This document shows positions 33,586 to 38,678 of a stretch of DNA of 43,254 nucleotides, in pieces; positions within the stretch are counted from its first letter, which is position 1; every line of letters starts with the position of its first letter. The stretch spans positions 1 through 43,254 of the forward strand of contig CAISVF010000611.1 in assembly GCA_903888765.1 (NCBI GenBank), in the 5' to 3' direction. The DNA comes from an uncultured Verrucomicrobia subdivision 3 bacterium. GTDB taxonomy: Bacteria > Verrucomicrobiota > Verrucomicrobiia > Limisphaerales > UBA11358. The notes below the pieces were generated by a model. It saw nothing but the letters and a program-made list of their open reading frames with translations, did not search any database and was not told the origin of the DNA. Made by a program: the position numbers and the translations under genes.

Positions 33586-35652
33586 ATGGCCGATGTGCCC
33601 ATGGATTTTTTTGCGCGACAAGACCAGGCCCGCCGCAAAACGAAATGGCTGGTTGCCTACTTCGTGCTGGCGGTGGTTTTGCTGATTCTGGCCGTTTACG
33701 CCATTGCCCTGGTAATCTTCTCGGGTGCGCCATTGCGGCATTTGCATTCTGGCGCTCTGATACCGTATGCCTGGTGGAATGCGCCGGTGTTTCTGGGGTC
33801 AACTCTCGGCGTGCTCGCAGTGATCTTTTTTGGCAGCGCCTACAAGACCAGTGAGCTTTCCGCTGGCGGCAGCGCCGTGGCGACGCTGCTGGGCGGACGT
33901 CTGGTGCCTCAAACTACCCTGAATGCGAACGAGCGCAAGTTGCTTAACGTTGTCGAGGAAATGTCCATTGCCTCCGGCGTGCCCATGCCGCAGGTGTATG
34001 TGCTGGAAGACGAGGGAGGCATCAATGCCTTTGCCGCCGGTCATACGCCCAGTGACGCCGCCATCGGGGTGACCCGGGGCTGCATCGAGATGCTGTCGCG
34101 CGATGAATTGCAGGGCGTCATCGGCCATGAATTCAGTCACATTTTGAATGGTGACATGCGGCTGAATCTCCGGCTCATCGGCCTGATTTTCGGATTGTTT
34201 TGCCTGGCTACCATCGGCCGCATTCTTTTGAACACCCGCGGCGGCAATAGCCGCGACCGTAATGCCCTGCCGCTGCTCGGTCTCGCGCTGGTCATTCTGG
34301 GGGCCATTGGCGTGTTTTTTGGCCGCCTGATTCAGGCCGCCGTCAGCCGTCAGCGCGAATTCCTCGCTGATGCCTCCTCCGTGCAGTTCACGCGCAATCC
34401 CGCCGGTCTCTCGGGTGCCTTGCAGAAGATCGGCCGCTTCAGTCTCGGTTCCCGGCTGACCTCCGACCACGCGCCCGACCTCTGCCACATGTTTTTTGGC
34501 AATGGTCTCGGCGATTCGCTCTTTGGGGCAATGGCGACGCATCCACCTATTCCCGAACGCATCCGCGCCATTGATCCCGCGTGGGATGGTAAATTCGCGC
34601 CGCTCACTCCGGAACTGGCGCAACACGTCCAGCACGCGGCCCTGGACGATTTGGCGCATCGTCCGCGCACCGGGCTGGAATCCACCGGTTCGGGGATGCT
34701 CGCCGCCGGAGAAAATAGTCCTCGCGAACCCGGGGTGCCGTTTCTGGACCCCATTGGCACCTCGCAATTGCGGCCGGTAGCCTCCGCCCCGCCGGTGATC
34801 CGCGCGGATGCGGTGCTGCCGAATCTTGGCAATCCCTCTTCGCTTCATCTGCGCTCCGCCGAACAACTGCGCGATTCCCTGCCGGAAAACCTCCGGGCTG
34901 CCGCGCGGGATCCGCAATTGGCCATGGCGCTGGTCTTGGCGCTCCTGCTCGATGCCGGCGAAGCCTTGCGCCGCCAGCAGTTGGCCGGGATTGCCCGGCA
35001 GACCAGTCCAGCCCTCGCCGCCCGCTGCGAGTCTCTGTATCCGGCCGTGGCGGCGGTCGCCTGTCGTACCCGCCTGCCTCTGGTCAATCTGGCGCTCGGT
35101 TCCCTGTGCCTGCTTTCGGCGGACGAGTTCCGGCAGTTTTCCGCCACGCTGGAATGGCTGGCCGGCAGCGATGGCCGGGTGGAATTGTTTGAATTTGTCC
35201 TCCAGAAAATCATTCAGCGGCATCTGGCGGTCAAATTCATCCCGGGACGGGTGCCGCCGGTGCAATACTACACGCTCAAACCCTTGCTGCCGGATTGCGT
35301 GGTGATTCTCTCGGCGCTGGCGCGGGTGGGCAGTGCGGCCGAGCCGGAGATCCAGACGGCTTTTTCCCTGGGCGTGCCGTTTCTGCGCGCTCCGGCCGCA
35401 GCGCCGCTGGGTTTGCTGCCGCTGGAGCAATGCGGGGTGGCTGCGCTTGATGCGGCGCTCGACCGGTTGGTCGGTGCCGTGCCCGTGATCAAAAAAAATC
35501 TGCTCGCCGCCTGCCTGCGCGTGGTCGGGGCGGATGGCCTGATTCTGGAAGCGGAGGCCGAACTGCTCCGCGCCGTGGCCGATACGCTGGATTGCCCTCT
35601 GCCGCCGCTGGGCATTCCCGGGGACGAGGGCGACGCAAATGCGGGCGAATAG
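33586..35652 (+). CDS. M48 family membrane metalloprotease with long C-terminal extension
   Basis: This is an HtpX-like integral-membrane zinc protease for membrane protein quality control. Two N-terminal transmembrane helices (about 22-46 and 66-83) are followed by the M48 catalytic region. The zinc motif HEFSH is at 181-185 (GVIGHEFSHILNGDMR) and the third ligand E258 is in REFLADASS. Another hydrophobic pair is at about 192-250, and MATHPPIPERIRAI is the conserved tail of the protease domain. HtpX is about 290 aa; this protein has 688. The extra 330 residues after about 355 form an unannotated, mostly helical region, with a TerB-like-looking end (ACLRVVGADGLILEAEAELLRAVADTL). It is coupled to lemA. 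Confidence 0.9.
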   Translation: MADVPMDFFARQDQARRKTKWLVAYFVLAVVLLILAVYAIALVIFSGAPLRHLHSGALIPYAWWNAPVFLGSTLGVLAVIFFGSAYKTSELSAGGSAVATLLGGRLVPQTTLNANERKLLNVVEEMSIASGVPMPQVYVLEDEGGINAFAAGHTPSDAAIGVTRGCIEMLSRDELQGVIGHEFSHILNGDMRLNLRLIGLIFGLFCLATIGRILLNTRGGNSRDRNALPLLGLALVILGAIGVFFGRLIQAAVSRQREFLADASSVQFTRNPAGLSGALQKIGRFSLGSRLTSDHAPDLCHMFFGNGLGDSLFGAMATHPPIPERIRAIDPAWDGKFAPLTPELAQHVQHAALDDLAHRPRTGLESTGSGMLAAGENSPREPGVPFLDPIGTSQLRPVASAPPVIRADAVLPNLGNPSSLHLRSAEQLRDSLPENLRAAARDPQLAMALVLALLLDAGEALRRQQLAGIARQTSPALAARCESLYPAVAAVACRTRLPLVNLALGSLCLLSADEFRQFSATLEWLAGSDGRVELFEFVLQKIIQRHLAVKFIPGRVPPVQYYTLKPLLPDCVVILSALARVGSAAEPEIQTAFSLGVPFLRAPAAAPLGLLPLEQCGVAALDAALDRLVGAVPVIKKNLLAACLRVVGADGLILEAEAELLRAVADTLDCPLPPLGIPGDEGDANAGE

Positions 35653-35760: not shown

Positions 35761-35867
35761 TAGCCAAGGCAGACCAGGCGGCTGGTCTTCAGTAAATTTT
35801 TCCAGCCTTTTACCAAATCGAAAATTCACCATGTAACAATTTCCATTCGCGGTTGTCTTGCGGTTAA

Positions 35868-38678
35868 ATGACGAGAGCCGAAATGACCGACAGCGCCAAT
35901 CCCAGCGCTCAGCAGGATGAATCTGCCGTGGCCGCCGTGCGCGGCGGCGATGCTGAGCGCTACCGTGAACTCGTTGAACGCCACGAACGCCGGGTCTATG
36001 CCGTCGCGTGGAGTCGGTTGGGCGATGCCGCGTTGGCAGAGGAAGTGACGCAGGAGGCGTTCATCCGCGCGTATCGGCGGCTATGGCTCCTGGGCGACGG
36101 GGCGAAGTTTTCCGGCTGGGTCAACACCATTGCCCGCCGAATCGCCATAAACTTCGGACTGCGCCACCGCCGCGAACTCAACAACCGCAAACGCTGGGCG
36201 CTGGAAACTGGCAACGCCGCCGCTCCCGAATCTTCGGAAGCCGACCCGCTGCACACGCCTGAAACCTTGCGGCAGACACTGGCGGAATTACCCGCCGCGC
36301 ACCGCGAATGTCTGGTGCTCTTTTATCTCGAAGGCAAGAGCGGCGCGGAAGTGGCGGCAGCGCTGGGAATTACCGAGGTGGCGCTGCGGGTGCGCCTGCT
36401 CCGCGCCCGCACCGCGATGCGCGAACGGCTTGAGGAAAAATTTGCAGACTCGCTAAACAAACTGCGTCCAGCCAAAACGCTCGTTCCCGCCGTCATGGCC
36501 GGGGTCCTGGCCTCTCCGTCAGCAAAACTCATTGGCGGCGGCGTTGGTGCAAAGATTCTATACTACTTGCTGCCGTTAAAGTTTTTATTCCTGTTCATCT
36601 GGGCAATAGCGATTCTCCCCAACCTGGTTTTGGGTTTGGTGGGCATGCACCTGGAACAAGGCAATCTTCGTGACCCAAAGGGTTTTCGCGCGCGAATGTA
36701 TGGGAAATCAGCCAAGCGAGTATTATGGTTACTGCCGCTGTTGCTGGCAGTTCCTTTGTTTATTTCCTATTTTTATTTGGCTGTCCTAAGCCCTAGCTTT
36801 GGAATAAATAGCTTTTACCTTTGTCTGGCAGCATTCCTGTTTTCCATAAGCTTGTTTTCAGCTCGGCAATTCACGATCAATCGCACGCGTTACCACTTCA
36901 CCACGTTTCTGTCGATGCTGCTGATGATTCCCGGCTGGCTGGCAATTGGCTTGGGCTGGCTACCGGTAAGCGCGAATAGCACCCTCATGATATTTTACCT
37001 TTTGCCGATCATTATTGGCTTAGGATCTCGCCCACTGCGGATGGACTACAATCTGTTCCGGCGGGCCGTGCAGAACATGTTGGAATCAATACCAGCGGAA
37101 TCAGCTTCAATCGAAACCCCATTGCCATTCAATAAATCGCAGTTAATCACGTTCGCCCGCTTTCTGGGCAATCGCCTGCTGGTGGTTGACTATCTCTGGC
37201 GCGAGCAAGGACTGATTCTCCGCTTACCGGCTCTGAAAACCATAAACTTGTGGGATGTCTTGGGAAGCTTTGTTTTCTATTCTGCATCCGGGCGGAGGTT
37301 TTCATATTTGCTGCTGGAATGGAATGGAACCGTCTCTGCCCAATTGGGAATCAATGACGAAAAGGCATTGCGGGCTTCGGAAGGTCGGGCATTTTCCGAT
37401 ACAGCCGATTTGGAAAATCAAGTGTCGGTGGCCGTCGAGTCGGCCTGGCGGCATTTTCATAACGGCGACGCAACTTCAGCCGAGAGTGCCTTGGGGCAAG
37501 TGCCGGAAGCTGACATTTTCATCGTACCCCCGGCGCGGTCAAAAGCCGTTCGCCTACAAAGGGGCGTGATGATATTTTTCCTGGTGCTCATGGTGATTCT
37601 CAACGGCTTAATATTTATCAACCCTGCGTGGATGGGCGGATTGAAGCCGGTGAATGTCAACGAGGCGGAAGTCCGCGCATTTTTGGGCAGTATCACCACA
37701 AATCCCAATCCGATAGTCAAGAACGAGCAGCGCAGCTATCCCGGCAACCCGATTATTGCTCTCAATAACTGTCTGGTTATGCCATCCTCAAATCTTTTCA
37801 GCTCGGCCGGATTGCTGGCGACCCGGCAGACAATTTTCAGGGCAGCAGGTTTTAATTCACACGGAGCTTTGGAATCAAAAATTGAAAGGCTGGAGGATAA
37901 TTGGCTACTCCAAAAGGCGCTGATTAATGACTGGATCAGCTATACCGATCTGGGAGTATCACCAACCCAGGCAGCAGAGCACCTACGCTCCGTTTCAGAA
38001 TCGCCTATATGGAATTTTATGCGCCGGACTAGTCTAGCAGACAAAAAGGAGATGGATGTAACGAGGATTGATGACCTGCCTTTAGCACAACTTCGCTGGC
38101 TCCGGGACGTGAAATGCGTGGACAGGGTGGATCGTAAAACAATCCTTAAACAGATTCTTCCCGTGCAAGTTTTGTCTGCCGAAACATCCGCCGGCCGGCC
38201 ACCGTTGCAGAATTGGCGCGCCATGCGTGGATTGTTCTACACGCCCGGCTTTCCTGCGTTGCGGGACACTTATTGCGACCTGGCCGCACTGGAAATTCTT
38301 GGTGCGCTGGACCAGATTGACCGCGCGGCGTGCATCCAGGGAATCCTTAAATGTCATCATGGCAAAGGTTATTTCACCTCACCCAGCGGACGCAATGAAG
38401 ACGGCATTGACGGCAGCGCCCGCGACACCATCGCCGCTTTTGAATCCCTGCGCATTCTCGGCGCGCTCGACCGCGTGAAGGATTTGGACAAATGGCAGTT
38501 TAGAGTGAAGTCAGACCACTTATCCAAACCCGACGCGAACGGGATTCGCACCTTGTCTTGGGATGGATGGCAAGATGTCGAGGCCTGGGTCTGCCAGCAG
38601 CGGCTGAATGAAATTATCCGAAATAGAAATAAAAATCCCCAAGCGCCCATCGGCTCGCTTTTACAACCTGCAAGTTAA
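35868..38678 (+). CDS. ECF-type sigma factor fused to multi-pass membrane and prenyltransferase-like C-terminal region
   Basis: This 936-aa protein starts as an ordinary sigma-70-family ECF factor. Region 2 is about 26-100 (DAERYRELVERHERRVYAVA, EEVTQEAFIRAYRRLW, FSGWVNTIARRIAINF). Region 4 is about 133-190 (LRQTLAELPAAHRECLVLFY, GKSGAEVAAALGITEVALRV, RLLRARTAMRERL). It then continues through predicted membrane helices (about 232-262, 284-306, 314-333, 347-365, 372-387), a soluble loop, and another helix near 566-585. The last 300 residues look extracytoplasmic. They contain a pair of prenyltransferase/terpenoid-cyclase-like alpha-helical repeats (about 790-870: DTYCDLAALEILGALDQIDR ... GYFTSPSGRNEDGIDGSARD then TIAAFESLRILGALDRVKD). 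This would be a sigma factor tethered to the membrane by its own C-terminus. The frame is continuous, with no anti-sigma gene beside it. Start at ATG 35868, or ATG 35883. Confidence 0.88.
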   Translation: MTRAEMTDSANPSAQQDESAVAAVRGGDAERYRELVERHERRVYAVAWSRLGDAALAEEVTQEAFIRAYRRLWLLGDGAKFSGWVNTIARRIAINFGLRHRRELNNRKRWALETGNAAAPESSEADPLHTPETLRQTLAELPAAHRECLVLFYLEGKSGAEVAAALGITEVALRVRLLRARTAMRERLEEKFADSLNKLRPAKTLVPAVMAGVLASPSAKLIGGGVGAKILYYLLPLKFLFLFIWAIAILPNLVLGLVGMHLEQGNLRDPKGFRARMYGKSAKRVLWLLPLLLAVPLFISYFYLAVLSPSFGINSFYLCLAAFLFSISLFSARQFTINRTRYHFTTFLSMLLMIPGWLAIGLGWLPVSANSTLMIFYLLPIIIGLGSRPLRMDYNLFRRAVQNMLESIPAESASIETPLPFNKSQLITFARFLGNRLLVVDYLWREQGLILRLPALKTINLWDVLGSFVFYSASGRRFSYLLLEWNGTVSAQLGINDEKALRASEGRAFSDTADLENQVSVAVESAWRHFHNGDATSAESALGQVPEADIFIVPPARSKAVRLQRGVMIFFLVLMVILNGLIFINPAWMGGLKPVNVNEAEVRAFLGSITTNPNPIVKNEQRSYPGNPIIALNNCLVMPSSNLFSSAGLLATRQTIFRAAGFNSHGALESKIERLEDNWLLQKALINDWISYTDLGVSPTQAAEHLRSVSESPIWNFMRRTSLADKKEMDVTRIDDLPLAQLRWLRDVKCVDRVDRKTILKQILPVQVLSAETSAGRPPLQNWRAMRGLFYTPGFPALRDTYCDLAALEILGALDQIDRAACIQGILKCHHGKGYFTSPSGRNEDGIDGSARDTIAAFESLRILGALDRVKDLDKWQFRVKSDHLSKPDANGIRTLSWDGWQDVEAWVCQQRLNEIIRNRNKNPQAPIGSLLQPAS

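Follow-up and report, generated by a model that had tools for sequence, protein, structure and literature searches.

A membrane-tethered ECF sigma factor of Verrucomicrobiota whose only detectable target may be its own gene

On a 43,254-nucleotide stretch of DNA from an uncultured Verrucomicrobia subdivision 3 bacterium (contig CAISVF010000611.1 of assembly GCA_903888765.1; this whole stretch is hereafter the window), we uncovered a gene in which an extracytoplasmic-function (ECF) sigma factor continues in the same chain into a membrane module and a C-terminal toroid. We propose, with a probability of about 0.6, that its product is a sigma factor that tethers itself and activates its own expression, with no detectable target but the gene that encodes it. 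The distinctive finding, missed by the first-pass annotation of this DNA, is a conserved candidate self-promoter without an excess of further targets.

The sigma part would lie in the cytoplasm, joined to the membrane module (a helix bundle, an alpha/beta domain and a last helix) and to an exchangeable tail, which here is a prenyltransferase-beta-like toroid most likely facing outside. We infer that GTAAC-N16-TGTCTT, whose first G lies 35 nt ahead of the start codon, is the site recognised by the sigma part, which would thereby direct transcription of the gene that encodes it, most likely into a leaderless mRNA, and that the membrane module and tail restrain the sigma part until a signal or a release step. 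Because hardly any other target is detectable by motif, the output would chiefly be more of the same membrane protein, amounting to a positive-feedback switch or a maintenance loop. A single protein serving as sensor, tether and sigma factor, and being its own principal target, would make a very simple circuit; the proposal also offers a concrete promoter and parts that should be swappable, since nature has exchanged both sigma modules and tails, and supplies a likely reading for a group of large verrucomicrobial sigma fusions. The features concerned are the following:

35833..35837, + strand: candidate -35 element GTAAC, at the same place before 28/28 fusion genes of sigma type 1
35854..35859, + strand: candidate -10 element TGTCTT, spacer 16 (two-box conservation; start distances)
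35868..38678, + strand: fusion gene for the ECF sigma factor, membrane module and toroid, 936 amino acids (open frame, Pfam, homologue loci)
35970..36173, + strand: sigma region 2, residues 35-102 (Pfam)
36267..36419, + strand: sigma region 4, residues 134-184 (Pfam)
36465..36545, + strand: linker with a marginal alanine-rich hydrophobic segment, residues 200-226 (insertion score, low model confidence)
36552..37028, + strand: five-helix membrane bundle, residues 229-387 (hydropathy, AlphaFold helices, family alignment)
37029..37553, + strand: alpha/beta domain of no known family, probably cytoplasmic, residues 388-562
37563..37619, + strand: last membrane helix, residues 566-584 (hydropathy, AlphaFold model)
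37623..38675, + strand: C-terminal alpha/alpha toroid of the protein-prenyltransferase beta type with unconserved zinc-site residues, residues 586-936

The gene is a single frame from its ATG without an internal break, and the chain runs from ECF sigma regions 2 and 4 through six hydrophobic helices and the alpha/beta domain to the toroid tail. Both sigma regions stand above their curated cut-offs, with Sigma70_r2 matching residues 35-102 (E 1.2e-12, 47.8 bits against a cut-off of 24) and Sigma70_r4_2 residues 134-184 (E 2e-11, 43.8 bits against 25.7); the TIGR02937 model scores 80.1 bits against 42.9, and other sigma regions went unreported, as is the rule for an ECF sigma factor. Hydropathy places the helices at residues 240-258, 288-306, 311-329, 347-365, 367-385 and 566-584, in agreement with the about six claimed in the first-pass annotation, and the repeats that it had quoted, LEILGALDQIDR and LRILGALDRVKD with a GYFTSPSG segment, are all present in the translation. 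The alpha/beta domain yielded no convincing match among solved structures, an absence that does not imply a new fold.

Within the order, a profile of the membrane module matched 30 of 320 genomes, in 17 of 118 genera; a smaller profile matched 10 of 384 genomes drawn from the class, and the profile 3 of 288 drawn from the phylum, the own genome included. The named relatives, all from metagenomes, bear the labels Limisphaerales, Verrucomicrobiales, Verrucomicrobia subdivision 3, Verrucomicrobia and Pedosphaera, and in one case Omnitrophota. In 33 of the 36 loci that we inspected, from 33 genomes with the own genome contributing three, sigma factor and membrane module share one frame. Of the other three, L122 is cut off by a contig edge and L050 and L125 are incomplete or broken; in no case does a separate sigma factor accompany an intact membrane protein. 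For the homologue pair L052/L053, the ratio of nonsynonymous to synonymous substitution rates is 0.055 in the sigma part, 0.21 in the membrane and cytoplasmic part and 0.20 in the toroid, pointing in this one pair to purifying selection on all three parts. The sigma part is also the most conserved portion by identity: across 24 type-1 rows it reaches 43-86%, the membrane part 23-68%. Metagenome contigs gave no relative when scanned with the single window protein and 16 loci when scanned with the profile, 14 of them already in the locus set. An assembly or sequencing artefact joining two genes might be suspected in draft metagenome genomes, and a frameshift or consistently split homologues had been named as its signs; we found no frameshift join, and fusion in 33/36 loci from many genomes, together with purifying selection on the parts flanking the joint, refutes this explanation almost entirely. 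The claims of a single-protein fusion and of a membrane tether stand: as judged from sequence, a one-chain membrane-tethered ECF sigma factor is confirmed as real, conserved and old.

Several individual loci deserve mention. L159 (JAKQFZ010001239.1) is a sigma–membrane fusion without a tail from the Omnitrophota-labelled metagenome genome, by horizontal transfer or through a mislabelled bin. L050, L110, L115 and L125 are fusion genes with incomplete or shifted frames, and in L110 the ATG behind the promoter is out of frame with the fusion. In the own genome, the ends of a contig (L002; C12, 1-3081) overlap by exactly 141 bp, giving a 2,940-bp assembled loop that carries a single fusion gene only, of 932 amino acids by its coordinates, with another sigma module and the same membrane module and toroid; it may be read as a tandem array, a small circle or an assembler loop.

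The candidate promoter emerged from a scan around the starts of 26 sigma-type-1 fusion genes, from 250 bp upstream to 30 bp downstream of each, in which GTAAC-N16-TGTC occurs in 23 upstream regions, the maximum for any pattern in 20 shuffles being 3. GTAAC is found in 28/28 sigma-type-1 fusion genes (27 aligned plus L123) and GTAAC-N17-GTC in 26/28, and L159, which played no part in the discovery of the motif, has GTAAC-N16-CGTC. The window's own copy is TGTAACAATTTCCATTCGCGGTTGTCTTGCGGTTAA, after which comes the ATG, 35 nt from the G of GTAAC. The motif is absent from all three fusion genes that combine another sigma module with the same membrane module, and the promoter class appears to go with the sigma module. 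By its sequence it is a bipartite AAC/GTC-type promoter with a spacer of about 16 before the own gene, as expected for an ECF factor; ECF promoters and ECF41 are described as having AAC at -35, CGT at -10 and a spacer of 16 +/- 1 (PMC3426412). Since the ATG follows closely behind the -10 element (35-38 nt after the G of GTAAC in 21/27 promoters) and a Shine-Dalgarno-like word stands between -10 and start in only 3 of the 26 promoters with the start found, the main transcript is probably leaderless.

A second candidate class, TGTY...TTT...GCGG(A)CAT just before the ATG, is seen in 8/9 fusion genes with another sigma module, upstream of L002, L109, L055, L017, L021, L024, L027 and the second sigma gene of L051. 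The six stand-alone ECF genes tested are without it, as is the fused C25 gene. This pattern was fitted after the fact, and a dyad scan made blind gave 3 against shuffle maxima of 2 to 3, no clear excess.

Within the 5.4 Mb of the own genome there are two strict motifs, one ahead of the window's fusion gene and one ahead of its paralogue on C507. A promoter model picks out the same two genes with E 2.9e-6 and 1.2e-4, the next match among the 150 of 2108 candidates scored having E 1.9. We extended the count to 25 fusion genomes, that is, the 33 with the module minus G036 and G445 (other sigma module) and G087, G425, G570, G408, G632 and G774 (incomplete or distant). They hold 37 strict sites, 23 of which, assigned by hand comparison of coordinates, lie at fusion genes of 22 genomes; the other 14 amount to 0.092 per Mb, against 0.115 per Mb (12 sites) in 25 genomes without a module match. 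A looser motif with two bases fewer likewise gives 1.79 per Mb in fusion genomes and 1.72 per Mb in genomes without the module. Its reversed control is about three times richer and unmatched (271 motif against 826 control matches in fusion genomes, 180 against 587 in the others), so the comparison between the two genome sets was used instead. Thus, strict or looser, the motif shows no excess outside the fusion genes across these two sets of 25 genomes. From among the off-locus sites we inspected 12 (8 of the 14 strict and 4 looser), and two strict ones with an extended motif, L133 and L134, stand before proteins with an N-terminal membrane anchor, as assigned by eye; rare extra targets beyond the fusion genes are likely. 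L133 is similar to the fusion promoter found in its genome, though without that promoter's start codon.

These counts bear on an unlikely alternative, namely that the protein is an ordinary one-component sigma factor of the ECF52/IutY type, which receives an outside signal, is released by proteolysis and serves a sizeable regulon of degenerate promoters, with self-transcription as mere amplification. Proteins of this kind exist (IutY, ECF48/52/53, SCO4117; PMC8999054, PMC5826349): IutY is cut by Prc and RseP, and ECF48/52/53 are expected to act likewise (PMC8999054), while for SCO4117 a motif was reported upstream of 29 affected genes, and the truncated protein switches on the gene that encodes it (PMC5826349). 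The two plausible extra targets L133 and L134 would suit it too. Against it speak the missing motif excess, strict or looser, outside the fusion genes of the 25 genomes, the lack of a zinc-finger anti-sigma domain in the protein by Pfam, and the finding that no neighbour, protease or other, recurs in more than 5 of the 36 loci. A further reading, tentative and at somewhat less than even odds, is a regulon of one, in which promoter and sigma factor form a private expression cassette for their own membrane protein; such cassettes would have been grafted in the Limisphaerales/Pedosphaera lineage onto many unrelated exported domains, such as the toroid, TPR-like repeats, the RCC1 propeller, DUF3738 and POTRA. 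If this is true, these are self-transcribing membrane proteins that combine signal, switch, transcription factor and product in a single chain.

Both the tail and the sigma module have been swapped among these genes. A tree of the membrane module for 31 of 38 loci, seven short or partial ones being left out, carries 21 toroid tails, 6 TPR-like, 3 with little or no tail and 1 other; the tails need 5 changes on it and the sigma class 3, two of them firm, and the 6 TPR-like genes fall on one side of a branch with support 98/99. The TPR-like labels and the coiled-coil-like one of L148 were assigned by eye, and Pfam reported no TPR at E<=0.01 in L005, one of those with a TPR-like tail. Little or no tail is found in L047, L112, L124 and L159, and in the slot beside a cation-efflux-type gene (named by eye) the toroid form of L051 is replaced by TPR-like forms in L057 and L111. 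The tail is thus exchangeable while sigma and membrane module stay, which makes the membrane module, more than the toroid, look like the essential part. The toroid had been proposed as an outside sensor: an outside position is indeed probable, but its role as the essential sensor is weakened by its being swapped or absent elsewhere.

The toroid itself is more extensive than the last ~150 residues first assigned to it: the fold is upheld, and the predicted structure shows a protein-prenyltransferase beta-type alpha/alpha toroid over the full domain of residues 586-936 (~350 amino acids). Pfam reports Prenyltrans at residues 750-871 (E 8.6e-4) with 19.2 to 21.6 bits, under the gathering score of 26.5. 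The zinc ligands of prenyltransferases are Asp, Cys and His; after the helix holding C822 and H830 the zinc site appears to be missing, because no column after residue 830 has His in at least 6 of 11 aligned rows and the Cys at residue 909 is only partly conserved (7/11). The DxDD motif of class II cyclases is found in none of these 11 rows. With neither conserved zinc ligands nor DxDD, we rejected an active prenyltransferase or terpene cyclase; compared with the beta subunits of protein prenyltransferases (RabGGTase, GGTase-I, FTase), the window's toroid is without the zinc site and fused behind a membrane helix. A toroid profile matches 17 of 196 genomes of the order, 16 of which also have the membrane module; the remaining one, G410, has a weak match with stop codons.

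The nature of the tail also bears on whether the sigma factor is a private expression device only and the protein mainly a membrane effector or enzyme acting through its toroid or TPR-like tail, without any gating. This would agree with the self-only motif, and with the swapping of tails and even sigma modules while the layout stays; yet the toroid has neither conserved zinc ligands nor DxDD, genes with little or no tail persist (the four above), and an ungated self-activating sigma factor would be expected to run away. We regard such an effector as improbable.

In the reading proposed here the tail most likely faces outside, and the distribution of lysine and arginine bears on this topology. 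In 27/27 aligned homologues these residues favour the side of loops 1 and 3 and the middle domain, with loop means of 6.9, 2.8, 3.1 and 2.6 against 0.2, 0.1 and 1.7 on the opposite side; per residue, in spans of differing length, they are about 0.27, 0.22, 0.19 and 0.16 against 0.03, 0.01 and 0.11, so that the order holds. The middle domain would therefore be inside and the tail outside, and we put the odds of a cytoplasmic alpha/beta domain with an outside tail at about three to one. POTRA domains lie in the periplasm, and a POTRA tail on another fused sigma gene (at L110) fits an outside tail. An inside middle domain needs an even number of passes between the sigma part and loop 1, and the segment of residues 200-226 is possibly an extra membrane pass or a re-entrant segment: its insertion score is marginal, between those of membrane helices and soluble controls, the predicted local-distance difference score is low at residues 217-235, and the segment is not a full helix in the AlphaFold model (predicted template-modelling score 0.54). 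The opposite topology, with six passes, the alpha/beta domain outside and a cytoplasmic toroid or TPR-like tail clamping the sigma factor in the manner of the ECF42 extension, accordingly draws on the six clear helices of hydropathy and model and on the marginal state of any extra pass; ECF42 TPR extensions are listed as regulatory (PMC8103513). It is disfavoured by the lysine and arginine on the alpha/beta-domain side in all 27 homologues and by the related fused gene ending in POTRA, and we consider it rather doubtful. We also considered whether an internal signal peptide that can be cleaved separates the sigma part from the membrane module, as many homologues have by eye an Ala-rich stretch like a signal-peptidase site here; the window protein's stretch, only marginally hydrophobic, fits poorly, and the idea is speculative.

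Several observations weigh against self-activation, or against the fusion gene as its sole target. L048, L123 and the distant L124 keep GTAAC with a changed -10; the 23/26 occurrences are not independent counts because the rows are related; and promoter and sigma factor adjoin, so that one recombination would move both, while the sigma changes on the tree include branches of modest support (81/84, 94/91). In the own genome the reversed pattern occurs 3 times to the strict motif's 2, and the promoter-model search scored 150 of 2108 candidates. Across the 25 fusion genomes the reversed pattern outnumbers the strict motif by 56 to 37, and hence it is position, not number, that carries the case. 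Since L133 and L134 are promoter-like, the regulon is not strictly one gene everywhere, and targets with weaker motifs would escape a motif search. Finally, with six clear helices the sigma part and the loops rich in lysine and arginine come to lie on opposite sides, the extra pass being marginal.

IutY has a FecR-type anti-sigma partner, and ECF41 proteins are soluble. Set beside these and other described groups, the window fusion is a variant of the known ECFs with C-terminal extensions, resembling ECF52 and IutY in layout without their defining parts. ECF52 (SCO4117 of Streptomyces coelicolor) shares with it the ECF sigma factor, a membrane part, an outside C-terminal domain and evidence for self-activation when truncated, and differs in its zinc-finger domain, proline-rich stretch and carbohydrate-binding module, being said to be limited to Actinobacteria (PMC5826349). 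The window protein instead has the five-helix bundle, the alpha/beta domain and the toroid, and neither a zinc finger nor a wider regulon was detected: Pfam found no zf-HC2 domain after sigma region 4 and no FecR-type domain at E<=1, nor any carbohydrate-binding module at the C end, which is the toroid. In IutY (ECF243) the sigma C end is similarly fused to a membrane regulator, with release by cutting shown, and the protein belongs to iron-starvation signalling (PMC8999054). ECF41 has a fused, SnoaL-like C-terminal regulator and a bipartite promoter with a 16 +/- 1 spacer at its own locus; unlike in the window, its motif is found ahead of a partner gene too, its -35 reads TGTCACA and its mapped mRNA carries a leader of 22/23 bp with a ribosome site, whereas here the target would be the sigma–membrane protein itself with a probably leaderless start. 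A genome-wide motif search for ECF41 found no conserved regulon (PMC3426412), and this group is a precedent for a fused sigma factor without a detectable wider regulon. The TPR extension of ECF42 has no counterpart in the window protein with its toroid; 6 homologues have a tail that is TPR-like by eye. Literature titles and abstract openings, which cover subscription papers thinly, contained no verrucomicrobial sigma–toroid fusion or self-only membrane sigma factor.

Upstream of the fusion gene lie genes for YkuD, LemA and an M48 peptidase, and a Gfo/Idh oxidoreductase is encoded on the opposite strand 1.4 kb downstream. The M48 gene (33586-35652) does end 215 bp ahead of the fusion ATG, as first described, and the candidate promoter of the fusion gene sits inside this gap. 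The suggestion that M48 processes the sigma factor did not survive: homologues of LemA and M48 are found at E<=1e-8 in 0/35 other loci, in a comparison of frames of at least 80 amino acids in flanks of differing length, including several short contigs, from which a distant gene could escape, and we rejected both as partners. The fusion gene also has its own candidate promoter. No neighbour family is conserved in more than 5/36 loci. The reported lack of an adjoining anti-sigma gene holds among the scanned neighbours; genome-wide, the sole zf-HC2 match, the one anti-sigma class searched for, stands beside a different ECF gene. The M48 peptidase carries a C-terminal extension of ~350 residues without a Pfam match at E<=0.01.

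Extended ECF factors are less rare than the first-pass annotation implied, as about 10 of the 19 ECF hits in the own genome extend at the C terminus by more than about 150 residues and membrane-fused ECFs have already been described (PMC8999054, PMC5826349). Long extensions follow the ECF sigma domains of L015, L017, L018, L021, L022, L024 and L027 in this genome, among them an RCC1 propeller (L017), DUF3738 (L027) and, just under the cut-off, DUF5122 (L024). The sigma fusion ending in POTRA (two stretches; L110:3308-4858) lies 459 bp upstream of a TPR-like sigma–membrane fusion gene.

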